Positions 2,832 through 18,012 of a stretch of 64,000 bases of DNA are shown piece by piece. This stretch comes from Candidatus Thiodiazotropha endoloripes (GTDB lineage: Bacteria > Pseudomonadota > Gammaproteobacteria > Chromatiales > Chromatiaceae): the NCBI GenBank assembly GCA_001709035.1, contig LVKA01000008.1, positions 372,001 to 436,000 on the forward strand. The letters are read 5' to 3'. The notes below the pieces were generated by a model, which was given only the letters and a program-made list of their open reading frames with translations, did not search any database and was not told the origin of the DNA. Every line of letters starts with the position of its first letter. Position 1 is the first letter of the stretch. A program made the position numbers and the translations under genes.

Positions 2832-2931
2832 ACGCTCGTGTCATCCCGCATTTACGTAGTTGTTGAGCCTGTCGGCGTTTCTCCTGATTAAAAACTCGCA
2901 GTAATTTTCTTGCGTCTCTTTTCTCTTCCAT
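2830..2931 (-). other. Short frame resembling the start of a helix-turn-helix protein
   Basis: A 33-codon minus-strand frame starts at ATG 2931 and runs into a stop (2830-2832) exactly where the truncated queD begins. Its C-terminal part (RRQAQQLRKCGMTRA) resembles the approach to an HTH of the recombinase/transposase kind. It looks like the 5' stump of a gene cut by the queD junction. There is no clear ribosome site; the identification is an inference from a very short sequence. Confidence 0.25.
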
Positions 2932-3002
2932 GAAGGTGAATACGCCAAATTTTCTTAATCACCGGGTTAATAACAACTATCTAATATTGTTAAATAGTAC
3001 GA

Positions 3003-3016
3003 TTGACACATGTCAA
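3003..3016. promoter_or_regulatory. FNR/Dnr-type box upstream of the hemerythrin module
   Basis: TTGACACATGTCAA is a perfect palindrome of the TTGAC-N4-GTCAA kind bound by Dnr/NNR/FNR-family activators. Its centre is about 61 bases before the ATG at 3071, which allows an activator site near -41 and a short leader. The same half-sites occur before nirS and beside dnr. Confidence 0.75.
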
Positions 3017-3070
3017 GGCCAGAGATCGAAATGCACCGAGAATCAATGTAACGGCAGCGGGAGCATTTCT

Positions 3071-3508
3071 ATGATTAAGATATCTCAAACCATGACCGAA
3101 GATCATCGATGTATTGACCAGGTTTTTGTCGAGATAGAAAAGGCGATTACCAAGTCTGAATGGGAAAATGCCTGGACAATCGCTGATTCATTCGATGAGA
3201 TGATGGAGCGTCATTTTTCTATCGAAGAAGATGTCCTTTTTCCTGCTATTGAGGATGCGACTGCATCTGCCAGCGGCCCAGTCAGAGTCATGACCATGGA
3301 GCATGATCAGATACGATACCTCGTTAACGTTCTGCGAACTGCTATAACCGAGCGGTCACGGGATAATGGACTTAGTGCATCGGAGACACTCCTGATGATG
3401 ATACAGCAGCATAATTCGAAGGAAGAGAATGTGCTCTATCCGATGGCAGACAGAACCGTACAGACGCTAGAGGAGGAGGTGTCGAGGCGGATCTTAGGGG
3501 CATTATGA
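3071..3508 (+). CDS. Hemerythrin-domain (HHE) protein
   Basis: A di-iron hemerythrin-fold protein of 145 residues, a family that binds O2 or NO or responds to nitrosative stress. The expected ligand motifs are in order: TEDHR near residue 10, HFSIEEDVLFP near residue 48, MEHDQ near residue 77 and QHNSKEENVLYPM near residue 115. The start at 3071 is chosen over an upstream in-frame ATG (2930) because GGGAG lies 7 bases before it and because the Dnr-type box at 3003 falls inside the longer version. The stop overlaps the start of the DUF2249 gene by 4 bases (ATGA), so the two are co-translated. Base composition is AT-richer than the flanks. Role in nitric oxide handling is inferred from context. 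Confidence 0.85.
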   Translation: MIKISQTMTEDHRCIDQVFVEIEKAITKSEWENAWTIADSFDEMMERHFSIEEDVLFPAIEDATASASGPVRVMTMEHDQIRYLVNVLRTAITERSRDNGLSASETLLMMIQQHNSKEENVLYPMADRTVQTLEEEVSRRILGAL

Positions 3509-3747: not shown

Positions 3748-4014
3748 GGCCTGTTAAGACTAATCCAATAGGCCCTGTTGCGTCTGAAAAAGCGCCAATC
3801 AAGGCGCGAGGAGTGTAGTTTGGTTGTTCCAAATGAGCGACGAGCAACGCCGAGTGGTGCTTTTTCAGGCGCAACCCGCAGGGCAGGGACCGTTTTTGTG
3901 CCCATCAGCGTTATCATTCGCTCATATAGCCGGGCTACACCACGCTCATTCTGCTTTGCTGGATACAAAAACAGTCCCAGCAGGGCGTATTGGTTTCGTG
4001 TTAGCAGGCCCTAG
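3745..4014. mobile_element. MITE-like repeat, full copy A
   Basis: A non-coding element of about 270 bp starts TAGGGCCTGTTAAGAC and ends GTGTTAGCAGGCCCTAG, the ends being imperfect inverted repeats of about 30 bp. CTAG occurs at both outer ends (3744-3747 and 4011-4014) and may be a 4-bp target duplication or part of the ends. Inside are nested inverted repeats, for example TGAAAAAGC against GCTTTTTCA, so the transcript would fold strongly. It shares most of its sequence, by eye about three quarters, with 24,878-25,146. It carries no transposase. It lies between two genes that probably formed one operon. Confidence 0.8.
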
Positions 4015-4018
4015 TCAG

Positions 4019-5287
4019 GTGATCAATACATCGGGACTTTCCCTGGAACAAGCGCCGCCATTGTTTGTTCCTTTCAAGTTCTTCTTTAGTGCAGCACTTT
4101 TTTCTGTGGCGATAGGTCTGCTTCTGATCTTCAATGGTCAGGATCTCTACAGTTCGCGCTGGAGTCCGTTGGCGCTGACATTGACACATCTCGTTACAGT
4201 GGGTTTTCTCGCACAGGTCATGACCGGGGCAATGTTTCAGTTACTGCCGGTAGTGGTCGGTACGCCACTGCCTTCTGTGATGCTAGTGAGCAGCATCGTA
4301 AACCTTTGTCTAGCACTGGGTGCAATCTCACTGAGTAGTGGATTTCTCTTTTTCAATCACGAACTGTTAATGCTTGGGGCAGTTTTGATTAGCGTTGGAT
4401 TCTCTGTTTTTCTTGTGGCCGCAAGTCTCACAATAAAAGGAAAGTCCGTACCCATCAAGATCACTTTACAACTGGGGCTGGGTTGGTTTTCAGTGATCCC
4501 AACTGCATTGCTTGGCATACTCCTAGTGCTCGCCTTAGCAGGTAAGGTGGCACTGAATGACATGCAACATGTGATTACCATCCATCTTTCCTGGGGGTTG
4601 ATGGGGTGGTTGGGGATCGTGCTTTTTTCTGTACTGTTCAAGCTCGTGCCAATCTTCTATGTCACTCGCGAAATTCCGCTGCTGTTGCAACAGATTTATG
4701 CGCCATCCATAGTCATTCTATTGACGTTCTTTACACTATCTATCTTTATTGAAGATTCAGTTTTTAAATCAAGTATTACAGCGGTTCTGTTTCTCTTATG
4801 CCTCATGGCAGTAGGAATTCTTGTGATTATTATTCAAAGAAAACGGCCGATTATCGATTCAACCCTTTTGTTCATAGGAACCGGTATCGGGTGCCTTTTA
4901 CTGGCGGCGGCGATATGGATAGTATCGGAGCGGGATGTTGTTATAGGTATTCTGCTTCTAATCGGCGTTGGCTTGACCATCCCAATTGGCATTATCTACA
5001 GGGTTTTGCCTTTTCTATGCTGGTACCATCTGCAGGCGGTTGTGCTTAAAAGAGGCCGTTTTAACGCTCAAATTCCCTCCATGAAGCATTTTATACCTGA
5101 GCGCTCAGCCAGGCGGCATTATATCGTTCATACATCCGCGATTATCCTGCTGTTAGCAGGCGACTTTATAACGCAACCTTTCCCAGCTCTTCCTGGTATT
5201 GTCTTCACAGGGTCAGCGATCTATCTGTCAAGTAATATTGCTAAGGCCTATATGGCTTATCAGCGAGCAATACAAGTGCATTTCTAG
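4019..5287 (+). CDS. NnrS-like / haem-copper-type multi-pass membrane protein
   Basis: An integral membrane protein of about 422 residues with roughly 12 hydrophobic segments. Histidine-bearing segments such as LTHLVTVGFLAQVMTGA and ITIHLSWGLMGWLG recall NnrS and haem-copper oxidase subunit I relatives, which bind haem in the inner membrane and accompany denitrification genes. The open frame reaches back to 3824, but its first ~62 codons are the inserted repeat, so I place the start at GTG 4019, just after the element; no good ribosome site is visible there. With the hemerythrin and DUF2249 genes it forms a module likely to deal with nitric oxide. The exact family is uncertain and expression may be altered by the insertion. 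Confidence 0.6.
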   Translation: MINTSGLSLEQAPPLFVPFKFFFSAALFSVAIGLLLIFNGQDLYSSRWSPLALTLTHLVTVGFLAQVMTGAMFQLLPVVVGTPLPSVMLVSSIVNLCLALGAISLSSGFLFFNHELLMLGAVLISVGFSVFLVAASLTIKGKSVPIKITLQLGLGWFSVIPTALLGILLVLALAGKVALNDMQHVITIHLSWGLMGWLGIVLFSVLFKLVPIFYVTREIPLLLQQIYAPSIVILLTFFTLSIFIEDSVFKSSITAVLFLLCLMAVGILVIIIQRKRPIIDSTLLFIGTGIGCLLLAAAIWIVSERDVVIGILLLIGVGLTIPIGIIYRVLPFLCWYHLQAVVLKRGRFNAQIPSMKHFIPERSARRHYIVHTSAIILLLAGDFITQPFPALPGIVFTGSAIYLSSNIAKAYMAYQRAIQVHF

Positions 5288-5562: not shown

Positions 5563-6129
5563 TCAGCGGATCCCTTTGTCACGTAAAAACTGGCTATAGT
5601 TTTGATCTGTGCCTGCGATATGGTTGATTAACCAAGTCTTAAGAAAACTGGTCAATTCGTCAATCGTCGCTTCACGGTCCTTTTCATAAGCATCCATGTA
5701 ATTGCTTACTTGCATGATCATTATTTCGTGCTGTTCCTTGTGCGGCTCAAAATCCGGATAGCCGTTGTCCTGCATCAGCTTTTCTTCTCTTGCAAAGTGA
5801 TATTTGGTGTAATCCACTAATTCACTTAACGCTTGACGTTCGAATGCCTCGCCGGTCGGATAGAGTATGGCTGTCTGTAAATTATTGATCAATGAGAGTA
5901 GTTTTTTGTGATCCTCATCGATGACCTCTATTCCTACACTCAGGTTGTCGTCCCAGGCAATAAACTTCCGTGATGTCATTTTCTTATGGATCACGGGTAA
6001 TGCAATGAGTATCGCTATCATGATCCACGGAACCGGATTATCAATACCAAACAGAAAACCGATACCGATAACCAGGAAGGCCAGTACGATAAACAGGGAG
6101 AGTCCGAAAGTCTGTAAGCTCTTGCGCAT
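5563..6129 (-). CDS. Membrane-anchored bacteriohemerythrin
   Basis: A di-iron O2/NO-binding protein. Two hydrophobic segments at the N-terminus anchor a cytoplasmic hemerythrin domain. The domain shows VIDEDHKKLLSLIN, HFAREEKLM, GYPDFEPHKEQH and a C-terminal WLINHIAGTD, covering the expected His/Glu/Asp ligands. The frame extends to a TTG at 6165, but ATG at 6129 has a weak GGGA ahead and gives a normal membrane N-terminus. It is transcribed away from nirS, and the palindromic Dnr-type box at 6277 lies in the shared upstream region, so both genes may respond to the same regulator. Confidence 0.85.
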   Translation of the reverse strand: MRKSLQTFGLSLFIVLAFLVIGIGFLFGIDNPVPWIMIAILIALPVIHKKMTSRKFIAWDDNLSVGIEVIDEDHKKLLSLINNLQTAILYPTGEAFERQALSELVDYTKYHFAREEKLMQDNGYPDFEPHKEQHEIMIMQVSNYMDAYEKDREATIDELTSFLKTWLINHIAGTDQNYSQFLRDKGIR

Positions 6130-6276
6130 GACGAGCATCCCGAAACTGTTGTAAATCAATAACAAAAGGAAGACCGGATACGGATTGGGTCATTTCAATC
6201 TCGCAATAAACCCAAACCGGACTCGGATCAAATACCTTGTCTGGATTGACTATCGGGTAAAACCACATTTTTTGAT

Positions 6277-6358: not shown

Positions 6359-8008
6359 ATGATTAGAAGTTCTAGGCCAAGCGTGAGGACCGGTATCAGC
6401 GTCAGTACGCTCTCTTTGGCAATCAGCTTGACTATTGGCGGTGCAGGCATTGCTGCCCAAGCCGCAACACCCACACTCAGCGAAGCGGACTTTGAGGCTT
6501 CCAAGACCATCTATTTTCAGCGTTGTGCGGGTTGCCATGGCACCCTGCGTAAAGGCGCGACAGGTAAGAGTCTGGAACCGAAGGAAACGCAGAAACTGGG
6601 ACAGGAGCGTTTAGAAAAGATCATCAAGTTCGGTACCGAAGGCGGTATGAACAACTTCGACGATATCATGACCGCGGATGAGATCAAGAAGATGGCCACC
6701 TACATTCAGATGGAACCCCCGATTCCGCCTGAAATGTCACTGGCCTTGATGAAAGAGCGCCACAAGGTCTTCGTCGACCCGAAAGATTATCCCTCCAAGC
6801 CTCTGCATGGCCGTAACTGGAAGAACTTCTTCCTGGTCATCGAGCGTGACGTGGGTAAAGTGGCTATTATCGACGGCGACAAAAAAGAGGTTGTTGCCCA
6901 CGTACCAACCGGCTATGCGGTGCATGTTCTAAAAGCTGCTGAGCATCATAAGAGCCTGCATGCCAAGGACGCCGGCCGTTTCTGGTATACCCAGGGGCGT
7001 GACGGCAAGCTGACCAAGATCGATCTCTGGCAGACTCCTGACAAGATGAAGGTTGCCGAGGTGCAGATCGCCTATGACGCTCGAGACGTAGCCGTCTCCG
7101 GTGACGGCAAGTATGTGGTGGGCGGCGGTTACTGGCCACCCCACTTCGTCATTGCCGACGCCCATACTATGGAGCCGTTGAAAGTGGTCTCCGCCCGTGG
7201 TGTTAATGTGGATGGCAATTACGTCAACGAGTCACGTGTGGCGGCTATCTACGACACACCTAACCACCCCAGTTGGCTGGTCTCGATGAAGGAGCTGGGG
7301 CAGATGTGGCAGGTCGACTACAGCGACATCGACAATCTGAAGATCACCAAGATGGATACCGCCAAGTTCCTGCATGACGGCTTCTACGATCCGACTGGTC
7401 GTTATTTCCAGATTGCTGCCAATGCCTCCAACAAGATGGTTGTTGTGGACACCGAAACCCAGAAGCTCACCAAGCTTATTGACGTAGACAAGCTGCCGCA
7501 TCCCGGCCCGGGCGCCAACTGGATCGATCCTAAGTGTGGTCCGGTCGGTGGCACCGTGCATCTTGGCGTCGGCAAGGTCACTGCCTGGGGTAACGATCCC
7601 AAGGGTCATCCCGATCAGGCATGGAAAGTCTGCTACGAGACCGAGACCGATGGCCCAGGTGTATTCATCCGGACTCATCCCAAGAGCGATTACGTCTGGG
7701 CTGATCAGACCAAGCATCCTGAACCTGAAGTTCAGCAGTCGGTCCAGGTCATCGATAAGAAGACCCGCGAGATCATCAAGACCATCCGTTTGACCGATAA
7801 GCCCGGCTATGCCGCGGTCCATATGGAGTTCAACGCAGATGGTACTGAGGTCTGGACCTCTGTCTGGAACCGTAAGGACTCGAAGGAGCCAAACGGTGAG
7901 ATCATCATCTTTGATGCAAAAACTCTCGAAGAGAAGGCGCGTGTCAAGGGTCTGTTCGCACCGACTGGCAAGTTCAATGTGCACAATCGGATCAATCACG
8001 TCACCTGA
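6359..8008 (+). CDS. nirS: Cytochrome cd1 nitrite reductase
   Basis: The periplasmic homodimeric enzyme that reduces nitrite to nitric oxide in denitrification. The 549-residue precursor has a signal peptide ending near residue 35 (AAQA), a cytochrome c domain with CAGCH at 56-60, and a C-terminal eight-bladed haem d1 propeller. Two conserved d1-pocket histidines of the family appear in the HDGFYDPTGRYF and MEFNADG regions, and the usual ending GKFNVHNR is present. The start has a GAGGA ribosome site. It heads a same-strand cluster with the NirT fusion, cupredoxin, three-haem cytochrome and peroxidase; the d1 assembly genes lie opposite and downstream. Confidence 0.98.
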   Translation: MIRSSRPSVRTGISVSTLSLAISLTIGGAGIAAQAATPTLSEADFEASKTIYFQRCAGCHGTLRKGATGKSLEPKETQKLGQERLEKIIKFGTEGGMNNFDDIMTADEIKKMATYIQMEPPIPPEMSLALMKERHKVFVDPKDYPSKPLHGRNWKNFFLVIERDVGKVAIIDGDKKEVVAHVPTGYAVHVLKAAEHHKSLHAKDAGRFWYTQGRDGKLTKIDLWQTPDKMKVAEVQIAYDARDVAVSGDGKYVVGGGYWPPHFVIADAHTMEPLKVVSARGVNVDGNYVNESRVAAIYDTPNHPSWLVSMKELGQMWQVDYSDIDNLKITKMDTAKFLHDGFYDPTGRYFQIAANASNKMVVVDTETQKLTKLIDVDKLPHPGPGANWIDPKCGPVGGTVHLGVGKVTAWGNDPKGHPDQAWKVCYETETDGPGVFIRTHPKSDYVWADQTKHPEPEVQQSVQVIDKKTREIIKTIRLTDKPGYAAVHMEFNADGTEVWTSVWNRKDSKEPNGEIIIFDAKTLEEKARVKGLFAPTGKFNVHNRINHVT

Positions 8009-8151: not shown

Positions 8152-10944
8152 ATGTATCAGCAGTCTTTATTCAAAAGCCTACTTTCACGCAAAGTCGCCT
8201 TTGGTGCGACACTGGGTGGTGCTGTCCTATTCATGGTCATCGGCGTCATACTCTGGGGCGGCTTCAATACCGTGATGGAAGCCACCAACACCATGGAATT
8301 CTGCATTTCCTGTCACGAGATGGAAGAGAATGTCTATCAGGAGTTCAAAGGCACTGCTCACGACGGTAATCGAAGCGGTGTTGGCGCAAGCTGCCCGGAC
8401 TGCCACGTTCCCCGGCCCTGGGTGCACAAGATTGTCAGAAAGATCAAAGCCAGTAACGAACTCTGGCACAAAATGTTGGGGACCGTAGATACCCCAGAGA
8501 AATTTGAACAACACCGTCTCACCATGGCCCGCCGGGTATGGAAGGCCATGAAGGAGACCGATTCGAGAGAGTGCCGCAACTGCCACGATTGGGACACCAT
8601 GAATCCCGAAAGGCAGAAACCGCGCGCACGCAATCAGCACGTCTTCGCCATGGAGAATGGCAACACCTGTATCGATTGCCACAAAGGCATTGCGCACAAA
8701 CCCGTACATAAGGAGATCAGTGAGGAGGAGCTGGAGGAGTGGGCCAAACCCATTGAGGACTATAAGACCGAGATACCTGTATCCTTCAAACAGGGACTGG
8801 CCAAAGCTGAAGCTGCGGAAGCAGCTGAAGAGGCGGCACGTCAGGAAGAGTCACGAAAAGAGCGTGAACGCCGCCAGGCGCAGGCATTGGCTGTACAGGA
8901 GAAAATTGACGCCGCTGTGGCCCAGGCCCTCGCCGCGGCAAATTCAAAAGACGCTGGAGCCGTTGCCGCACCTGCTGCGATCGCCCATGGCTTTGGTGTC
9001 GACTGGAGCGGATCGCCTGAACGCCTGATTACCCTTTTCTATCCCGGTCAGACCTCCATGGAGTGGACCCTGGTGGGTAAATATCACGGCGGCGCCCGGC
9101 CTTTCCGCGCCGGCGACCGCTGCACGGTCTGCCACGAGAAGGAACTCGCCGATATGGGCAAAAAGATGGTGACCGGCCAGAAGGCGGAACCGACACCGCC
9201 CGAAGGCAAACGCGCGGCCATCCCGGTAACAGTCCAGGCCGCCCATGATGATGAGCACCTCTATCTGCGTTTCCAGTGGGAGGATACGGAACATGTCCCC
9301 GTCCCCTTCGTGGACGGCGGAAAGATGGATCCCGCCAATCAGGTGAAACTGGCCCTGATGCTGGCCACCGATGAGCTGGAGTACGCCTCCCAGGCTGGTT
9401 GCTGGGGCACCTGTCATGAAGATCTGAGAACCATGCCCGGTCATCCTGATGATGCTGCCGCAGCGGGTCTCAACCTGGATCTCTCCAACGGCGTGACCAA
9501 ATATATCAAGGAGTCGCGAACCAAGGTTGAGGAGAAGGGTCGGCGCGGCAAGAAGCTTGGCGGATGGGATAAACTGAAAGACGATGCCGCCATCAAGGCA
9601 GAGCTTGATGCACACAAGGTCATGGACCTGATCCGTTGGAACAGCAGCGGTAAAACGGAAAGCGGCTATGTACTCGAACAGCGCATCATGGACGATGGTG
9701 GCAAGGTGGATGCTCAGGGTTGGCTGGAAGCGGGACTCTGGACTGTGGAAGTGAGACGTCCCTTGAAATCTTCAGGCACGGGTAATATCGCGATAGATCC
9801 GGGCACTGTCTATAATGTCGGTTTCGCCATCCATGATGACTACACCAATGCCCGTTTTCACCATGTCTCGCTCGGCTATAAACTGGCGTTGGATAACGAC
9901 CAGGCCGAAATCAATGCAGTAAAGGCCGAGGTTACAGCCGCTGCCGCTACCACAGTAGCGGCACCACAAAAGGCCGCCTCGCCAGCCGGAGGGGACGTGG
10001 GCAACAACGTTGACTGGTCGAAGGCTGGAGAGCGTCAGATCACCCTCTTCTATCCCGGCCAAACCTCCATGGAATGGACCCTGGTGGGTAAATTTCACGG
10101 CGGTGCTCGACCCTTCCGCGCCGGTGACCGCTGCACGGTCTGCCACGAGAAGGAGCTCGCCGATATGGGCAAGAAGATGGTGACCGGACAGAAGGCGGAA
10201 CCGACACCCCCTGAAGGCAAAAGAGCCGCCATTCCGGTGACGGTGCAGGCGACTCACGACAATGAGCATCTCTATCTGCGATTTCAGTGGGAAGGTACGG
10301 AGCATGTGCCTATTTCCTTCGTGGATGGCGGGAAAATGGATCCCGACAATCAGGTGAAGCTGGCCTTCATGTTGGCAACCGATGAGTTGGAGTACGCCTC
10401 CCAGGCCGGTTGTTGGGGTACCTGTCACGAAGATCTGCGAACCATGCCTGGCCACCCTGAAGATCCGGCTGCGTCTGGGCTTCCACTCGATTTCAGCCAG
10501 GGCGTAACCAAGTACATTAAGGAGTCACGCACCAAGGTCGAGGAGAAGGGCCGGCGTGGTAAAAAACTGGGTGGCTGGGACAAGCTCAAAGACAACGCTG
10601 CCCTGCAGGCGAAAATTGACGCCCATGAAATCATGGATCTGGTGCGGATAAGCAGCGGCAGCGGCAGTGTGGAGAATGGATACATCCTTGAGCAACGCGT
10701 TATGAAAGGCGGCGAAGCGCTACAGGGTAGTATTAAAGAGGAAGCCGGCTACTGGACCGCCACCTTCAAGCGCAAGCTAAAATCTGAATTATCCGGTGAT
10801 GTGGAGATCGAAAAAGGCACCGTCTACAATTTCGGATTTGCGATCCACGATGATTACACCAACAGCCGCTTTCATCATGTCTCACTCGGCTACAAATTAG
10901 GCCTGGACAATCCAGAGGCGGAGATCAACGCAATATCACAGTAA
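8152..10944 (+). CDS. NirT-type tetrahaem cytochrome fused to two EB_dh-like haem domains
   Basis: A 930-residue membrane-anchored multihaem cytochrome, probably passing electrons from quinol to the periplasm. Residues 20-37 form a membrane anchor, followed by a NapC/NirT domain with four haem sites: CISCH (51), CPDCH (81), CRNCH (141) and CIDCH (173). An Ala/Glu-rich helical linker (about 190-280) leads to two copies (283-582 and 620-920) of a domain like the ethylbenzene-dehydrogenase/DMSO-reductase-type haem subunit. Each copy carries CTVCH plus an unusual CWGTCH, so up to eight haems in total. The copies are almost identical over long stretches, showing a recent internal duplication. NirT alone is about 200 residues, so this fusion is far longer. 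Its position right after nirS suggests it feeds electrons to NirS. Confidence 0.85.
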   Translation: MYQQSLFKSLLSRKVAFGATLGGAVLFMVIGVILWGGFNTVMEATNTMEFCISCHEMEENVYQEFKGTAHDGNRSGVGASCPDCHVPRPWVHKIVRKIKASNELWHKMLGTVDTPEKFEQHRLTMARRVWKAMKETDSRECRNCHDWDTMNPERQKPRARNQHVFAMENGNTCIDCHKGIAHKPVHKEISEEELEEWAKPIEDYKTEIPVSFKQGLAKAEAAEAAEEAARQEESRKERERRQAQALAVQEKIDAAVAQALAAANSKDAGAVAAPAAIAHGFGVDWSGSPERLITLFYPGQTSMEWTLVGKYHGGARPFRAGDRCTVCHEKELADMGKKMVTGQKAEPTPPEGKRAAIPVTVQAAHDDEHLYLRFQWEDTEHVPVPFVDGGKMDPANQVKLALMLATDELEYASQAGCWGTCHEDLRTMPGHPDDAAAAGLNLDLSNGVTKYIKESRTKVEEKGRRGKKLGGWDKLKDDAAIKAELDAHKVMDLIRWNSSGKTESGYVLEQRIMDDGGKVDAQGWLEAGLWTVEVRRPLKSSGTGNIAIDPGTVYNVGFAIHDDYTNARFHHVSLGYKLALDNDQAEINAVKAEVTAAAATTVAAPQKAASPAGGDVGNNVDWSKAGERQITLFYPGQTSMEWTLVGKFHGGARPFRAGDRCTVCHEKELADMGKKMVTGQKAEPTPPEGKRAAIPVTVQATHDNEHLYLRFQWEGTEHVPISFVDGGKMDPDNQVKLAFMLATDELEYASQAGCWGTCHEDLRTMPGHPEDPAASGLPLDFSQGVTKYIKESRTKVEEKGRRGKKLGGWDKLKDNAALQAKIDAHEIMDLVRISSGSGSVENGYILEQRVMKGGEALQGSIKEEAGYWTATFKRKLKSELSGDVEIEKGTVYNFGFAIHDDYTNSRFHHVSLGYKLGLDNPEAEINAISQ
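8998..9897 (+). repeat. Intragenic tandem repeat, unit 1 (EB_dh-like domain)
   Basis: This 900-bp unit encodes residues 283-582 of the NirT fusion. It matches 10,009-10,911 at DNA level, with long near-identical runs around the CTVCHEKELADMGKKMVTG segment. The two units are joined by an Ala-rich linker of about 37 residues. Confidence 0.85.
10009..10911 (+). repeat. Intragenic tandem repeat, unit 2 (EB_dh-like domain)
   Basis: Second copy of the domain (residues 620-920). Differences from unit 1 cluster in the last third (after the RRGKKLGGWDKLKD stretch), while the haem-binding parts stay nearly the same. Confidence 0.85.
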
Positions 10945-11004: not shown

Positions 11005-11340
11005 ATGTTTCGATCTAGCATAATTCTGCTGGTGTGGCTGTTTGGCGCACAACAGGCAGTTGCCGGCGGTGACGAAGTAGTCACAGTCATTGCTAAGGAC
11101 TACAAATTCCAACCTGAAGAGATTACCGTCAAAGTGGGTGCCACCGTACGCTGGGAGAACCACGAAAAGCGCCAGTATCACAGTGCCTGGTTTGAAGTCC
11201 TCGGCGAAGAGCCCGGCGACTACTTCTTTCCTGGGGATATCAGGGAACGCACCTTCGAAAAGGCAGGTACTTACCACTATGTCTGCGAGCCTCACCAAGA
11301 GAGCCACCAGATGAAAGGTGTGGTGCACGTTGTAGAGTAG
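11005..11340 (+). CDS. Secreted cupredoxin (type 1 copper protein)
   Basis: A small periplasmic blue-copper electron carrier of 111 residues with a signal peptide ending near AVA-GG (residue 20). Type 1 copper ligands are visible: His59 in YHSAWF, then Cys94, His97 and Met103 in CEPHQESHQM. It lies 60 bases after the NirT fusion on the same strand, so it is well placed to carry electrons to NirS or the peroxidase; no nirM-type cytochrome c551 is present in this cluster. The electron-transfer partner is inferred. Confidence 0.88.
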   Translation: MFRSSIILLVWLFGAQQAVAGGDEVVTVIAKDYKFQPEEITVKVGATVRWENHEKRQYHSAWFEVLGEEPGDYFFPGDIRERTFEKAGTYHYVCEPHQESHQMKGVVHVVE

Positions 11341-11440: not shown

Positions 11441-12286
11441 ATGATCCATAAAAAACAGTTCTGGCTTGTCGGTGTTACTGCCCTTCTGCTGGCATCTCTG
11501 AGCTGTCACTCCGTTGCCGAACAGGAGCGCAGTTTCACACTACTACCCGATTCACTTTCACAGTGGTACAAGCCAGAGAGCAAGAGACAGGTCTGGCTTC
11601 ACACCATGTTTGCGCTTCGGCGGGAACTACAGGCCGTAGATGAGTATGCCGCTGAAGGAGACCTGGAATTAACCCGCAAGTGGACCAATAAGTTCGCCGT
11701 ACACTATCGTAAACTCCCGGAAATGGTGCCCGAGTGGCAGGATGAGGTCGAGCTGGAAGAGACCGAACAACTTGAAGCGGCAGCCCAAACAGGGGATTTC
11801 AAGCGTGTGGCCAGCGCCGTTTCACGGCTGCAACGCAACTGCCGAAACTGTCATCGGGAGTACCGGGCGCTAACCGCGCTCCGATATCGCTCACCGGATT
11901 TTAGCAAGATCGAGATTGATGACGACCTGGGCCAACCGCAGGAATATGGCGATCACATGGAGACCCTCTCCCAAACGGTCAACCGCATCAAGATAGCCAG
12001 TGTGGACAATCGATGGAGCCACGCACAGAAAGCTGTTCAGCAGCTCCGCGGGCAACTTCATCGGCTGGCGGAGAGTTGCGACTCCTGTCATAAAGACGAA
12101 CTGCCCCGTCAACGGATTCTCGGCGATGCAAGCGTAAAAACACTCGATGAACTGGATGAGGCATTGACTCAACAGCAGCCCAAAATGGCCGGCAGAAAAC
12201 TGGGCGAAGCCGCTGTCGTCATCTGCGCCAGGTGTCACGGCGTACACCGATCGTTGAGCGATACCCGATCCTTTCTGTTTGATTGA
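11441..12286 (+). CDS. Periplasmic three-haem c-type cytochrome
   Basis: A secreted protein of 281 residues with an N-terminal signal peptide (to about residue 26) and three haem-binding sites: CRNCH followed by EYR, CDSCH, and a C-terminal CARCH. The spacing and the CxxCHxxYR style suggest helical cytochrome c'-like units joined together. It is in line with the upstream cupredoxin (100-base gap) and the downstream peroxidase (45-base gap). I cannot name a characterised family; a role in electron transfer to or from the nitrite reductase system is inferred from context. Confidence 0.8.
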   Translation: MIHKKQFWLVGVTALLLASLSCHSVAEQERSFTLLPDSLSQWYKPESKRQVWLHTMFALRRELQAVDEYAAEGDLELTRKWTNKFAVHYRKLPEMVPEWQDEVELEETEQLEAAAQTGDFKRVASAVSRLQRNCRNCHREYRALTALRYRSPDFSKIEIDDDLGQPQEYGDHMETLSQTVNRIKIASVDNRWSHAQKAVQQLRGQLHRLAESCDSCHKDELPRQRILGDASVKTLDELDEALTQQQPKMAGRKLGEAAVVICARCHGVHRSLSDTRSFLFD

Positions 12287-12331: not shown

Positions 12332-13333
12332 ATGAAACCCAAGCTCTGTCTCGTCTTTGTCTTGATGGTGTGCCTGTTCACACCCGGCGTGCAGGCAGAT
12401 AAAACCGATCGCTTGATCAAAAAAGCCAACCGCTATTTTACTCCACTGCCTCAGATCATGCCCGGCAGTGAGAATGACACACCGGAACGTGTCGAATTGG
12501 GGAGAGAACTCTATTTCGACCCCCGCCTCTCTATCAATGACAGCCAATCCTGTGCCAGCTGTCATCCGCTAGGAAACGGCAGGGGCGGTATGGATAGCCG
12601 TCCAACATCACCGGGAGCCCGCGGTGAATTCGGAGACCGCAATACCCCGACGGTACTCAATGCCGGATGGCAGCGTTCCCAGTTTTGGGACGGTCGTGCC
12701 AAGGACCTGGCGGATCAGGCACGTCAACCGATACTGAACCCGATAGAGATGGGTATGCCGGATGAAGCGAGCGTGGTGAACAAACTCAGCGCCATTCCCG
12801 ACTATATGGACGCCTTCGAAAAGGCCTTTCCGGAGGACGCCTCACCCCTCTCCTATGACAATATGGCAGAGGCCATCGCAGCTTTTGAGCGCACACTGCG
12901 CAGTGAATCCCGCTTCGATGATTTCATGCGCGGAGATAAAACGGCTTTGAACGTTCAGGAACAGTCAGGGCTGACGCTTTTTATCCGCCATAACTGCGTA
13001 CGCTGCCATGATGGCCCCATGATCGGCGGTACCCTACTAGAGAAACTCGGGGTGAACGCCGAATTTCATAATACGGAAGACCTCGGGCGTTTTCGGGTGA
13101 CCGGTGAAGAGGCCGACCGCATGGTTTTCAAAGTAGCCTCTCTTCGTAATGTGGCGATCACCGGTCCCTGGTTTCATGATGGCTCGGGAAAGGAACTCTC
13201 CGAGGTAGTAAAAATCATGGCAAGAATTCAGCTTGATACCGAACTTAAAGCTCAGGACGCCGAGGCTATCACCGCCTTTCTTCATGCGTTGACTGGTAAG
13301 GACTTTGAAAGCACAGCCGCCGTGAGTCAGTAA
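12332..13333 (+). CDS. Di-haem cytochrome c peroxidase / MauG family
   Basis: A periplasmic di-haem enzyme of 333 residues, the family that reduces hydrogen peroxide with electrons from small c-type cytochromes or cupredoxins. It has a signal peptide (to about residue 22), an N-terminal haem site CASCH with the ELYFDPRLS approach, FWDGRA, and the second haem site CVRCH, followed by LRNVAITGPWFHDGS typical of the C-terminal domain. Length is normal for a CcpA-type peroxidase. It is the last gene of the nirS-side cluster and meets the nuclease gene tail to tail. Confidence 0.9.
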   Translation: MKPKLCLVFVLMVCLFTPGVQADKTDRLIKKANRYFTPLPQIMPGSENDTPERVELGRELYFDPRLSINDSQSCASCHPLGNGRGGMDSRPTSPGARGEFGDRNTPTVLNAGWQRSQFWDGRAKDLADQARQPILNPIEMGMPDEASVVNKLSAIPDYMDAFEKAFPEDASPLSYDNMAEAIAAFERTLRSESRFDDFMRGDKTALNVQEQSGLTLFIRHNCVRCHDGPMIGGTLLEKLGVNAEFHNTEDLGRFRVTGEEADRMVFKVASLRNVAITGPWFHDGSGKELSEVVKIMARIQLDTELKAQDAEAITAFLHALTGKDFESTAAVSQ

Positions 13334-13980: not shown

Positions 13981-15573
13981 TCAATGGCTGGTCCCTGAAG
14001 AGCGGGTCAACTTGTTGTGTACGTTGTACTTGCCGGACGGCTTCTTCATCGGCAGTCGCTTGACCTCCTCGAGGGTGCGGGCGTCATAGATCACCAAGGC
14101 TCCGTCCTGGTCCCAGACACTGACCAGCGCGTAACGTCCATCCTTGGTGAATTCCACATGCGCCGAGGTCTTTCCCGGTGCCGGATAGAGCGTCTTGACC
14201 ACTTCCAGGCTCTGCTTATCGATCACGTGCATGGCATCCTTGTGCTCACCGAAGAAGACATCCACCCAGGCGTAGGGGCTCTTCTCGTGACTGCGCATGA
14301 AGAAACCCGGCCCGAGGGTTGGAATCTCCTTAATCACCTCCCAACTGTCGGTATCGAGCACAGTCACCTTGCCGGCCTTGATATTGGGAGTGGCCATCAC
14401 ACGGCGTTCACCGATACGCCAGGTGATGCCTGAACTGAGATGGGGCATACCGGGAAGGTCCAAGGCCCCGACGGCGCGTCCCAGATCGAGATCCACCACC
14501 TGTCCCTTGCCATCGCGTGCGGTGCCGGCAATTTGCGTGTAATCCTGATTGATAAAAAAATCGTCGAGATAGTCCCGGGTCCTGATTCGCCGAACCGGAA
14601 AAGGCTCGGTCACTCCCGTTTCCCCCGAATCCGCCCGATAGTCATGAATCCATTGGCCGAATCCTTTCGGCGGAGGAATCTCATAACTGATCTCCCAAAC
14701 CTGAGGAATATCCTTCAACGCGGCAACGAAGGATGAGCGGGGGTCTGCGGTATAAACTGCGCTGACTCTGGAACTCTTGCCCTTTTCATCTTCCACAGGG
14801 ATCACCTTCAACGGTGTTAGATCCCTTGTATCCAACACCACCAGAGTGTGGGGCAGATAGTTGGCCACCATGACAAATCGACCGTCATGTGAAACGGCCA
14901 GATTGCGTGTATTTATGCCCGCTCTTACCTCTGCCGTGTAGGTGAGGTTGAAGGTGTCGAACTTGCTGATCCAGCCATCACGGGAGGCAAAGTAGACATA
15001 GCGCCCTCCCTCTGCATACTTGGGGCCGCCATGAAGGGCGAAACGGGTCTGAAAGCGGTGAATCGGGGTAAAGGTGTCACCATTCAACAGGGTCGCGTGA
15101 TGATCTCCCAGTTCCACCACCACGAAAAGATTATCGATATCGGCCTCGTAGAGCGGCTTGTCCGGCAGGCTGCCATGAGCATGGTGCTCGATTCGGCTGG
15201 CGGCAATCTGTTGCATTTCCCACTCAGGGATATGCTTGAGCGGGGTATAGACATAGTCCACCAGCGCCTGGATCTGATCGGTACTCAGGCGTGTATTGAA
15301 GGGAGGCATCTGGGTCGCGGCACGTCCCTCTGCAATGGTTTTCAAGGCTTTTTTTGGGCGCAGCCTGCGAAGGTTCTCGGGCAGTAGGGCGGGGCCCGTT
15401 CCCCCCAGCCTGTCCGTGCCGTGGCATTCAGCACAGTGCGTGCGATAGAGTTCATCGACTGACACTTCAGGCAGCCCAGCACTGGCATCGGTAACAGCGA
15501 TGGCAAGGAGTAGCGGCATCAGATACGAGGTCTTTCTGACGGTCAGTATGATGTTACTTGCTTTCGCCGACAT
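13981..15573 (-). CDS. nirN: NirN, dihydro-haem d1 dehydrogenase
   Basis: A NirS paralogue that finishes haem d1 by introducing the last double bond and hands the cofactor on in the periplasm. About 530 residues: signal peptide, a cytochrome c domain with CAECH near residue 50, then a d1-type propeller ending in GKYNVHNKLTR as in NirS. The frame extends to 15624, but ATG at 15573 has GGAG 7 bases upstream and gives a proper signal peptide, so I choose it. It differs from nirS (6359) in the short Lys/Pro-rich cytochrome domain and in lacking the nitrite-pocket sequence context. It is in the assembly operon after nirJ. Confidence 0.93.
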   Translation of the reverse strand: MSAKASNIILTVRKTSYLMPLLLAIAVTDASAGLPEVSVDELYRTHCAECHGTDRLGGTGPALLPENLRRLRPKKALKTIAEGRAATQMPPFNTRLSTDQIQALVDYVYTPLKHIPEWEMQQIAASRIEHHAHGSLPDKPLYEADIDNLFVVVELGDHHATLLNGDTFTPIHRFQTRFALHGGPKYAEGGRYVYFASRDGWISKFDTFNLTYTAEVRAGINTRNLAVSHDGRFVMVANYLPHTLVVLDTRDLTPLKVIPVEDEKGKSSRVSAVYTADPRSSFVAALKDIPQVWEISYEIPPPKGFGQWIHDYRADSGETGVTEPFPVRRIRTRDYLDDFFINQDYTQIAGTARDGKGQVVDLDLGRAVGALDLPGMPHLSSGITWRIGERRVMATPNIKAGKVTVLDTDSWEVIKEIPTLGPGFFMRSHEKSPYAWVDVFFGEHKDAMHVIDKQSLEVVKTLYPAPGKTSAHVEFTKDGRYALVSVWDQDGALVIYDARTLEEVKRLPMKKPSGKYNVHNKLTRSSGTSH

Positions 15574-15577
15574 TGAA

Positions 15578-15815
15578 TCACTCCGCCACGCGATCGATAC
15601 GGTAAGCCGCATGACAACTGACACAGTTGTCCAGTACCTGGGTTAACTGTTGGAGACTCAACTGCATGTCATCCATCTGTCCCGCGTCCAACGCCATCTG
15701 ATCGAACCGCCAATGGGTCCGGTGTGACATCTCCTTGCAGTATGAATCTGTAAACCAGTCCACCTGATACAACCAGGAGTAGCAAGGCGACAATACAGCA
15801 AGTTAAGCGTTGCAT
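15578..15815 (-). pseudogene. Small monohaem cytochrome, frameshifted or internally deleted
   Basis: ATG at 15815 opens a normal membrane/signal start (MQRLTCCIVALLLLVVSGGL) that ends after 48 codons. In a different frame the same stretch encodes FDQMALDAGQ, LTQVLDNCVSCHAAYRIDR, the C-terminal half of a small c'-like cytochrome with one haem site. Together they look like one gene of normally about 150 residues that has lost its middle and shifted frame. A TTG start at 15793 would make a 71-residue version without a signal peptide, which could not be matured. A sequencing error is possible but would not restore the missing middle. It lies between nirJ and nirN. Confidence 0.6.
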
Positions 15816-17025: not shown

Positions 17026-18012
17026 CTAGAGATTCAATCGCATGCCGGTCTTCTTCAGCACCGCCGAACTGAACAGGACCTCGTGACCCTGATGGTAGGG
17101 TTTCAGGACCTGGCCCATCTCAATCAGTTTTTCCTTCACATCGTCCCGGTCCCGACCATGCACCATGGCGAACAGGTTGTAGGGCCAGTCGGGTAGATGG
17201 CGAGGCCGGGAGTAGCAGTGGCTGACATAGTCGAGTGAACCTAGTCGCAGTCCCGCTTCGCGTAGCTGTTCATCCGGGATGTTCCAGACGGTCATGCCAT
17301 TGCCGCGAAAGCCAAGGCGGTAGTGGTTGGGCACCAACCCGGTTCGGCGTATGACCCCCTTTTCCTGCATACCGTTCATACGCTCGATCACCTCGCTGGG
17401 CCAGCAACCGACGCGTTCAGCCACCTGTTCGCAGGGATCGTGACTCACCGGAAGACCGGCCTGGGTTTCAGCGATAATACGGCGGTCAAGCTGATCAAGG
17501 TGGTGACTGCCACAGGATGTACCAGCGGGGATGGAGCGAGTAGTGAATCCGCCATCCTCCCCAATTTCGAACCAAAGGCCGAGATAAAACTCCTCCTGTT
17601 TGGGAAAGGCGTATACCCGCAGACTGGTTATCCCTTCGATGTGGCTGATAATGCTGGCCATGCTCTCGTTGGAATCAGTGGCCAGTACAAACCACATATT
17701 CAGCCAGTGGTCACGTCGATAGTTGTGAGCCACCTCCGGCAGAGCATTCACCTGCTCCACCACATCGTCAAACACCGCTTCAGGGACAGCCATGGCGGCA
17801 AGGGCCAGGCTTCCCCCCAGGCGTTCAGCGTTATAGAGGGGGCCGAATCGTGAAAGCCAGCCGTCGTCCAGCAGACGTTGCACCGCCTCCATCACCTCGG
17901 ATTCATCCGAGTCGACTAGCCTGGCCATCTGCTGGAAGGGTCTGTCGGACAGGTCGACACCGCCCTGGAAACGGTTGATCAGTTGGCGATCGAGCAATGA
18001 CAGGCTGGACAT
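17026..18012 (-). CDS. nirDL: Fused siroheme decarboxylase (NirD-L type)
   Basis: A 328-residue two-domain protein that, with the neighbouring homologues, decarboxylates siroheme to didecarboxysiroheme in haem d1 synthesis. The N-terminal half is of NirD/NirG kind (AHNYRRDHWLNMWFVLAT), the C-terminal half of NirL/NirH kind (HCYSRPRHLPDWPYNLFAMV). Each half begins with an Lrp/AsnC-like winged helix. In Pseudomonas these are separate genes; fused NirDL proteins are known elsewhere. By gene order (after F, D, L) it may correspond to nirG-nirH, so the letter assignment is open. It starts 4 bases after the upstream gene. Confidence 0.88.
   Translation of the reverse strand: MSSLSLLDRQLINRFQGGVDLSDRPFQQMARLVDSDESEVMEAVQRLLDDGWLSRFGPLYNAERLGGSLALAAMAVPEAVFDDVVEQVNALPEVAHNYRRDHWLNMWFVLATDSNESMASIISHIEGITSLRVYAFPKQEEFYLGLWFEIGEDGGFTTRSIPAGTSCGSHHLDQLDRRIIAETQAGLPVSHDPCEQVAERVGCWPSEVIERMNGMQEKGVIRRTGLVPNHYRLGFRGNGMTVWNIPDEQLREAGLRLGSLDYVSHCYSRPRHLPDWPYNLFAMVHGRDRDDVKEKLIEMGQVLKPYHQGHEVLFSSAVLKKTGMRLNL

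Follow-up and report, generated by a model that had tools for sequence, protein, structure and literature searches.

A conserved NirT–NirB–NirB fusion encoded directly behind nirS is a known electron-supply pair in doubled form

Architecture of the fused gene

Directly 3' of nirS, and like it on the + strand, the window (the whole stretch of 64,000 nucleotides that was analysed) encodes a single chain of 930 residues in which a NapC/NirT tetrahaem domain is joined to two tandem NirB-type di-haem domains. No new system is seen here: the fusion is conserved and carries a known electron-supply pair with its NirB part doubled. It is a single chain, follows nirS, occurs together with one NirS group and has invariant NirB haem motifs. 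It probably acts as a membrane-anchored octahaem wire that leads from the quinol pool through NirT and the two NirB modules to NirS, possibly via a cupredoxin. The source organism is close to sulfur-oxidising symbionts of lucinid clams. The features of the locus are as follows.

6359..8008, +: nirS, cytochrome cd1 nitrite reductase (PF02239, 401.9 bits; N-terminal cytochrome c Pfam matches; CAGCH and d1 domain)
8152..10944, +: NirT–NirB–NirB fusion, uninterrupted ATG frame of 930 codons, eight haem motifs
8212..8286, +: predicted N-terminal membrane anchor helix, residues 21-45 (hydrophobic stretch; helix in the low-confidence AF2 model)
8224..8706, +: NapC/NirT tetrahaem domain, residues 25-185 (PF03264, 235.7 bits, cut-off 24.1)
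8302..8316, +: haem motif CISCH51, NirT 1 (sequence motif)
8392..8406, +: haem motif CPDCH81, NirT 2 (sequence motif)
8572..8586, +: haem motif CRNCH141, NirT 3 (sequence motif)
8668..8682, +: haem motif CIDCH173, NirT 4 (sequence motif)
8779..8943, +: Ala/Glu-rich linker between NirT and the first NirB, long predicted helix, residues 210-264 (AF2 full-length model)
8992..9927, +: NirB domain 1, EB_dh fold, residues 281-592 (PF09459; AF2; 2ivf_C, Z 14.7)
9067..9615, +: apparent homogenised tract of NirB 1, residues 306-488 (four-lineage tract scan)
9121..9135, +: haem motif CTVCH324 of NirB 1 (sequence motif)
9400..9417, +: haem motif CWGTCH417 (CX3CH) of NirB 1 (sequence motif; CX3CH second in 119/119 pairs)
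9928..9999, +: Ala/Pro-rich linker between the NirB domains, residues 593-616 (sequence; block pLDDT 25-63)
10003..10941, +: NirB domain 2, residues 618-930 (PF09459, 98.7 bits)
10078..10626, +: apparent homogenised tract of NirB 2, residues 643-825 (corresponds to 306-488 at an offset of 337)
10132..10146, +: haem motif CTVCH661 of NirB 2 (sequence motif)
10411..10428, +: haem motif CWGTCH754 (CX3CH) of NirB 2 (sequence motif)
11005..11340, +: cupredoxin directly downstream of the fusion (PF13473/PF00127 over cut-off)
12332-13333, +: MauG/MbnH-like enzyme near the fused gene
13981-15624, -: NirN-like protein near the fused gene

A reading made earlier from the sequence only had described a NirT cytochrome followed in one chain by two tandem EB_dh (ethylbenzene-dehydrogenase-like) domains, and this is borne out by the single 930-residue frame and by the Pfam matches, with 235.7 bits to PF03264 for the NirT part and 107.8 and 98.7 bits to PF09459 (cut-off 33.3) for the two EB_dh stretches. 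The NirT part carries four CX2CH motifs, at residues 51, 81, 141 and 173, behind a hydrophobic N-terminus whose helix is predicted to anchor the protein in the membrane, and the CTVCH and CWGTCH motifs ascribed to each EB_dh domain are present at 324/417 and 661/754. In the full-length AF2 model the linker helix of residues 210-264 has block pLDDT values of 81-86 at 201-230, which go down to 46 by 251-260; with an overall pLDDT of 61.5 and a pTM of 0.48 this model is too weak for statements on contacts between modules.

Family membership of the domains

At 254.5 bits the fusion falls below the cut-off of the NCBIfam model TIGR02161 napC_nirT (310.6 bits), and its NirT part is therefore filed under the Pfam family, not under the narrower subfamily model. 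The TorC pentahaem cytochrome also combines, in one chain, a NapC-like quinol dehydrogenase with an extra C-terminal haem domain, but its C-terminal domain and its partner enzyme differ from those of the fusion; the match to the TorC model TIGR02162 is confined to residues 28-202 and remains below the cut-off (230.6 vs 478.2 bits). The genome holds four further strong NapC/NirT matches and a weaker sixth over the cut-off, which weigh against assuming specificity of the fusion's NirT.

The earlier label 'EB_dh-like' was right as to family and fold, but the domains are no exotic recruit: judged by their sequence they are NirB-type di-haem cytochromes, as is cytochrome c-552, and the separate-gene form follows nirT in denitrifiers. 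Such a separate gene stands behind nirT beside nirS at L098, L099 and L123, among others, the L123 protein matching the window domain with 43% best-segment identity. The AF2 model of NirB domain 1 (pLDDT 84, pTM 0.87) resembles 2ivf_C (Foldseek E 4.2e-09, TMq 0.42 / TMt 0.60; Z 14.7, rmsd 3.4, 185 aligned) and 7b04_C (Z 13.3, rmsd 3.5, 179 aligned), so that the predicted domain has the EB_dh fold in common with EbDH gamma (2ivf_C) and NxrC. Both of these are subunits of Mo enzymes, and EbDH gamma binds its haem b non-covalently, whereas the NirB domains of the window carry c-type haem motifs. A function as ethylbenzene dehydrogenase is rejected, since the fusion scores 34.5 bits, far below the cut-off of 169.85 bits, with TIGR03477 (DMSO reductase type II haem b subunit), the kind to which EbDH gamma belongs; the nine proteins profile-scanned around the fused gene include no Mo subunit.

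The CX3CH haem sites

The second NirB motif is CX3CH in all 119 motif pairs, which come from frames found by phmmer with the window's own domains, too-distant EB_dh proteins lying outside the set, and in which pairing always begins at the CX2CH site; seven motifs stayed unpaired in cut or broken frames or at a match edge (one each at L021, L128 and L031, two each at L058 and L127). Because of this invariance CX3CH is very probably a genuine haem site, as had been supposed, on grounds of sequence and not of chemistry, and it would be expected to be loaded with haem. His312, 328, 422, 561 and 570 are invariant in 69/69 aligned NirB domains, a set that would suffice to give each of two haems a pair of His ligands. 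The literature matches listed contain no chemically proven CX3CH haem in NirB; purple-bacterial homologues have been the subject of protein-sequencing work. The motif matters for haem counting and annotation, for a count of CXXCH alone gives six haems for the fusion and not eight.

Known NirT and NirB systems

According to the cited passages on Stutzerimonas, NirT and the di-haem cytochrome c-552 (NirB) follow nirS (PMC13086519, PMC8954225), nitrite reduction in strain ZoBell requires NirT, and NirTB occurs with NirS clade 1b, not 1a (both PMC13086519). An order NirT, NirB, NirS has been proposed (PMC8954225), and a fused NirTB in Halomonas sp. 2A is already in print (PMC13086519); the passages cited from the Stutzerimonas study settle no role for NirT or NirB (PMC13086519). 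A double NirB fusion does not appear among the literature matches listed.

By its description, the Stutzerimonas/Pseudomonas stutzeri pair likewise consists of a tetrahaem NapC/NirT and a di-haem NirB that are encoded right after nirS and tied to one NirS group, but as two proteins with one NirB, whereas the window has one chain with two. The fused NirTB of Halomonas sp. 2A and the single fusions found here also have NirT joined to NirB in a single protein encoded behind nirS, and in the single fusions of Ruegeria and Azospirillum a cupredoxin follows as it does in the window; they differ in having one NirB and six haem motifs, as against two NirB and eight motifs.

Distribution and linkage to nirS

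A search for the fused architecture in other nirS genomes, as the earlier reading had advised, found the order nirS–NirT–NirB(–NirB) in many Gamma- and some Alphaproteobacteria. Within the window's genus the double fusion is present in 14 of 22 genomes, and other lineages have it too; the remaining eight of the genus lack an intact double fusion, which implies that two NirB copies are dispensable. Single fusions with one NirB occur in Azospirillum brasilense Sp7, Ruegeria, Defluviimonas and Sedimenticola MAGs; Betaproteobacteria, Thauera terpenica (L123) among them, and Magnetospirillum have nirT and nirB as separate neighbouring genes next to nirS.

In 62 of the 68 fused frames sampled, less than 250 nt separate the end of a same-strand NirS frame from the open frame of the fusion that follows it, a count made without the window and L002 and with some genomes counted twice; as to the six misses, L049, L025 and L045 have no NirS match on the examined DNA, and L078, L010 and L009 begin too near to the gene or inside it. 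When a class sample of 274 genomes was screened for EB_dh and NirS, an EB_dh domain was found in every one of the 18 genomes with a NirS that shares 72-100% identity with that of the window (its own genome included), in 15 of them beside nirS on the same contig with 0.9-1.2 kb between the matches. It was found in 6 of the 34 genomes with only more distant NirS, two of which have NirT and NirB (fused in G094, L025; separate in G162, L014), and in 18 of the 222 without NirS at that threshold, a figure that comprises all EB_dh, NirB-like and other having been told apart only for individually read loci; archaeal control genomes contain EB_dh as well. By these counts the fusion goes along with one NirS group.

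A cupredoxin lies downstream in 27 of 51 frames with at least 700 nt of downstream sequence; this count takes in L002 of the window and doubly counted genomes, and leaves out the cupredoxins that are annotated at L143 and L144. Annotations place one behind the single fusion of a Ruegeria and of an Azospirillum plasmid too, and the cupredoxin is possibly a further electron carrier of the same cassette. Fnr/Dnr boxes were absent near nirS at up to one mismatch; the four matches in the window are at chance level, 20 of 100 shuffles reaching four.

Electron supply to NirS

In the classical scheme, soluble c551 or azurin brings electrons from bc1 to NirS. The NapC/NirT domain with its four haems would instead draw electrons from the quinol pool, an activity suggested by its family, and these would cross the stiff linker to the tethered pair of NirB modules, each with two haems, which would pass them on to NirS, the cytochrome cd1 nitrite reductase of the periplasm, perhaps with the neighbouring cupredoxin as a relay; the transfer to NirS, the order of modules in the chain and any independence of bc1 are what we infer. 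The suggestion of a new electron route to the nitrite reductase thus stands in so far as a NirT with extra haem domains lies beside nirS and most likely feeds it, but not as to novelty, a NirT–NirB route having been proposed already.

A rather unlikely alternative is that the chain serves as a reductive activator, switching on oxidised, inactive cytochrome cd1 with low-potential electrons, while bc1 would provide the steady supply by way of soluble carriers, for instance the cupredoxin. Cupredoxins are a usual type of soluble donor, and one does follow the fused gene, but eight haems and two tethered modules would hardly be needed for activation. Less likely still, the tethered NirB could serve another periplasmic acceptor, or the assembly of NirS or haem d1 (for instance with NirN or the MauG-like enzyme), the linkage to nirS being mere co-regulation. 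The NirN-like protein, the MauG/MbnH-like enzyme and haem d1 genes near the fused gene fit such a role, as do adjacent separate NirT and NirB frames without a NirS match in two sampled genomes (L011 of G037, L022 of G179) and, in the passages cited, Rhodocyclus species with NirB and no nitrite reductase genes (PMC8954225). Against it stand the NirS frame directly ahead of the fused gene in 62/68 frames and the joint retention of nirS, single fusion and cupredoxin in Ruegeria and Azospirillum, where the other neighbours differ.

The wire from quinol to NirS, as the preferred reading, bears on the open question of how electrons are fed to NirS in denitrifiers and why some of them accumulate nitrite, for which NirTB is a named suspect in the passages cited (PMC13086519). 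A natural fusion that physically joins the donor parts and tracks one NirS group makes the NirT–NirB–NirS route testable with one protein.

Divergence and gene conversion of the two NirB copies

The DNA of the two domains, earlier held to be almost the same, proved clearly diverged: codon-aligned, the copies are 73.1% identical over 312 codons (80.1% for residues 281-482, 60.4% beyond), with a dS of about 1.9 and silent sites near saturation by a simple NG86/JC count. The proteins agree at 244/309 positions, and the sole gap-free direct repeat found measures 300 nt at 85%. That nirT and nirB are in truth separate, or NirB single, and were joined through a sequencing or assembly error has next to no chance: alike copies could confuse an assembly, and L042 and L092 carry a reading-frame break inside the second copy, but the copies differ by 27% of bases and stop-free full-length double frames exist in many assemblies made independently of each other, among them those of isolates such as Sedimenticola selenatireducens, so that the double form in 14/22 genus genomes and other lineages excludes a frameshift or misassembly.

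A recent duplication, one of the two origins offered for the likeness of the copies, is rejected for the window by the dS and the trees; gene conversion, the other, is supported, yet as an old process that left a mosaic tract. Within residues 306-488 copy-specific columns make up 5 of 54 informative ones, as against 18 of 29 outside, a tract score reached by 0 of 1000 shuffles in a scan whose four lineages were picked after the trees had been viewed. The tree cut at residue 482 came from the window alignment, a caveat that the AU p-values share, and the AU tests covered 16 of 27 double proteins. In the tree of the later part (115 columns, 77 rows; program warnings on few columns and long branches) the first-copy group has a support of 92/90, not starred, and also includes five single-NirB proteins. 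The NirB duplication seems to predate the split of several lineages, and residues 306-488, which contain both haem sites, seem to have been homogenised inside each lineage, whereas the sequence on either side retains differences specific to each copy, a pattern that marks old gene conversion. This combination is the new observation, and with its mosaic of copy and lineage one reading frame neatly illustrates partial concerted evolution.

As a tentative extension, for which the chances are modest, repeated gene conversion might keep the haem cores of the two NirB interchangeable while the flanks have specialised, the first copy docking towards NirT and the second onto NirS or else the cupredoxin, giving one NirS group a private, bc1-independent supply. 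Near-identical NirB copies exist at locus L010, at 97.3% and a dS of 0.02.

The fused protein and its surroundings

The fused protein is a true and conserved one, a doubled and fused form of the known NirT/NirB pair. A single ATG frame (8152-10944, + strand), separated by 143 nt from nirS (6359-8008) on its 5' side, encodes 930 residues, in which Pfam scores over cut-off are reached by a NapC/NirT domain (residues 25-185) and by two EB_dh stretches. Eight heme motifs line the chain, four CX2CH in NirT and one CTVCH plus one CWGTCH in each C-terminal domain, which bears out the sequence-only reading of NirT joined to two EB_dh-type heme domains in one chain. The genes that follow are:

11005-11340, + strand: small cupredoxin, directly 3' of the fused gene
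11441-12286, + strand: c-type cytochrome with a cytochrome c' match, 3' of the cupredoxin
12332-13333, + strand: MauG/MbnH-like di-heme protein, 3' of the c-type cytochrome

The succession of the latter two after the cupredoxin recurs in a number of Thiodiazotropha loci. The order nirS, fusion, cupredoxin is also annotated on plasmids of Ruegeria sp. THAF33 and Azospirillum brasilense Sp7, there with a single instead of a double fusion, and a cupredoxin lies within 400 nt in 27 of the 51 fused frames with enough flanking sequence, an undercount by this method. Near nirS, a predicted multi-span membrane protein (3824-5287, + strand) appears NnrS-like by eye, and at E 0.001 neither Pfam nor NCBIfam gave a match for it; upstream of nirS, two proteins (2930-3508, + strand; 5563-6165, - strand) are hemerythrin-like by eye. 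Further away, one chain (17026-18012, - strand) exceeds the cut-offs of both siroheme decarboxylase subunits, AhbA and AhbB, as an NirDL-type fusion.

Within its own genome, EB_dh is confined to the two domains of the fused gene, which is also one of five strong NapC/NirT matches; a sixth is weaker and still over cut-off. Three strong cytochrome d1 matches are read here as one NirS, one NirN and one NirF-like protein.

The C-terminal domains and their heme sites

EB_dh is a fold-level name for these domains. The AF2 model of the first one (pLDDT 84, pTM 0.87) matches the folds of ethylbenzene dehydrogenase gamma (Z 14.7) and NxrC (Z 13.3). Identity as a type II DMSO reductase heme b subunit was rejected, the score of 34.5 bits falling far below the model cut-off of 169.85. 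According to excerpts of two papers, Stutzerimonas carries nirT-nirB, encoding a tetraheme and a di-heme protein, immediately 3' of nirS (PMC13086519; PMC8954225), and this arrangement is matched by the separate two-gene form beside nirS in related loci.

Among relatives found by the window domains, all 119 distinct motif pairs consist of a CX2CH followed by a CX3CH that always starts Cys-Trp; seven motifs without a partner lie close to a match edge or on frames that are truncated or broken. All 69 aligned domains share both motif histidines and His 312, 561 and 570 (window numbering), a conservation pattern that would fit two hemes per NirB module with two histidines each. Putative atypical CX3CH motifs are reported for CymA and ImcH homologues (PMC6295460), so that such sites are treated as heme sites elsewhere.

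Distribution

The closest named relatives belong to Candidatus Thiodiazotropha and other gammaproteobacterial clam symbionts, many at 88-95% over the best segment; a Chromatiales MAG (L073) reaches 96% on the same measure. The search for the architecture elsewhere was rewarded. In the genus survey (22 genomes, the window's own counted), 14 hold the two-domain frame, including G279, where it is cut at a contig end; a single-domain fusion is present in two (G280, G290), and in G274 the double fusion is broken by a frame shift. The only match in G285 is a different EB_dh protein, and the remaining four genomes (G275, G288, G289, G294) gave none. Of 70 named loci, 20 carry NirT-NirB-NirB (L060-L079) and 15 the single fusion (L080-L091, L093, L095, L096; L095 cut by a contig end); L092 is a double fusion with a disrupted second copy, and the remainder show separate adjoining genes (e.g. 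Thauera L123, several Magnetospirillum), an NirB-like gene without NirT, or contig-end cuts. In L042, as in L092, the reading frame shifts near the start of the second NirB copy and divides the double fusion, through either a sequencing error or a true break. The single NirTB fusion is already in print, as an excerpt of PMC13086519 indicates; among the literature matches listed, no published mention of the double fusion was found.

Association with NirS and a possible electron route

In 62 of 68 fused frames (genomes other than the window's, some entered twice), the end of a NirS frame on the same strand lies under 250 nt to the 5' side. Crossing the EB_dh list (42 genomes) with the NirS list (52) of a 274-genome class sample placed EB_dh in all 18 genomes whose NirS is 72-100% identical to the window's (own genome counted), beside nirS on the same contig in 15 and on other contigs of fragmented assemblies in three. 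EB_dh occurs in six of the 34 genomes with only more distant NirS (G061, G082, G094, G162, G177, G214; NirT and NirB fused in G094, separate in G162) and in 18 of the 222 without NirS. This tie to one NirS group parallels that of Stutzerimonas nirTB to NirS clade 1b, as described in part of PMC13086519. For a Thiodiazotropha symbiont, a complete denitrification pathway is stated to be encoded and expressed (excerpt of PMC11171427).

NapC/NirT proteins oxidize quinol at the membrane. The fused chain most likely forms an electron route from quinol to NirS; the architecture is observed, and every electron-transfer step along it we infer. Quinol would be oxidized at the membrane by the NapC/NirT domain. 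The AF2 model predicts a helix some 55 residues long (210-264), with confidence over its first half only; this helix may keep the first NirB off the membrane, and the Ala/Pro-rich linker between the NirB domains (residues 593-616) could allow the second to swing, such that electrons would run along the chain to NirS, directly or via the cupredoxin. A role of the chain as reductive activator of cytochrome cd1 seems unlikely. NirT and NirB frames that are separate but lie side by side in two of the 18 EB_dh genomes with no NirS match (G037, locus L011; G179, locus L022), together with Rhodocyclus, which has NirB and no nitrite reductase according to an excerpt of PMC8954225, indicate that the pair can serve without NirS; that the fused chain itself serves another acceptor or assembly is more doubtful still.

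Probable gene conversion between the two NirB copies

The DNA of the two domains, once taken to be almost identical, is 73.1% identical with dS about 1.9 (protein 244/309). Gene conversion, proposed at the same time as a reason for their likeness, has held up: conversion of the heme-bearing core with retention of copy-specific flanks explains best the mosaic pattern in trees of 27 double and 23 single proteins, built separately for the parts before and after residue 482, with lineages and cut picked after looking. In the later part, the first copies of Thiodiazotropha, L038, L071, L069 and L070 cluster together, separately from their own second copies; support is 98/98 when the tree is reduced to 16 double proteins and 92/90 in the full tree, where five single-NirB proteins fall inside the cluster. 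Trees of the earlier part pair the copies by lineage (Thiodiazotropha 99/92, L071 100/98, L069 with L070 96/92). For this part the AU test rejects a tree that unites all first copies (p 0.0006), and for the later part it rejects the converse groupings (p 0.019, 0.015, 0.003). A column scan of four of these lineages delimited a lineage-specific tract at residues 306-488, with 5 of 54 informative columns copy-specific inside versus 18 of 29 outside, a score reached in 0 of 1000 shuffles. The seven informative columns at 552-587 tend towards the lineage pattern as well, and the tract therefore does not account for everything.

Copies from doubles of the Sedimenticola kin, L009, L015 and L010 fall outside these groups, through either separate duplications or fuller conversion, which the trees do not distinguish. 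Thiodiazotropha copies cluster for the most part by position, before as well as after residue 482 (exception: the L051 first copy, earlier part), so copy exchange is not frequent in that lineage now. Unlike the window, L010 (G084) has NirB copies with 97.3% identical DNA (dS 0.02), a likeness due to recent duplication or conversion.
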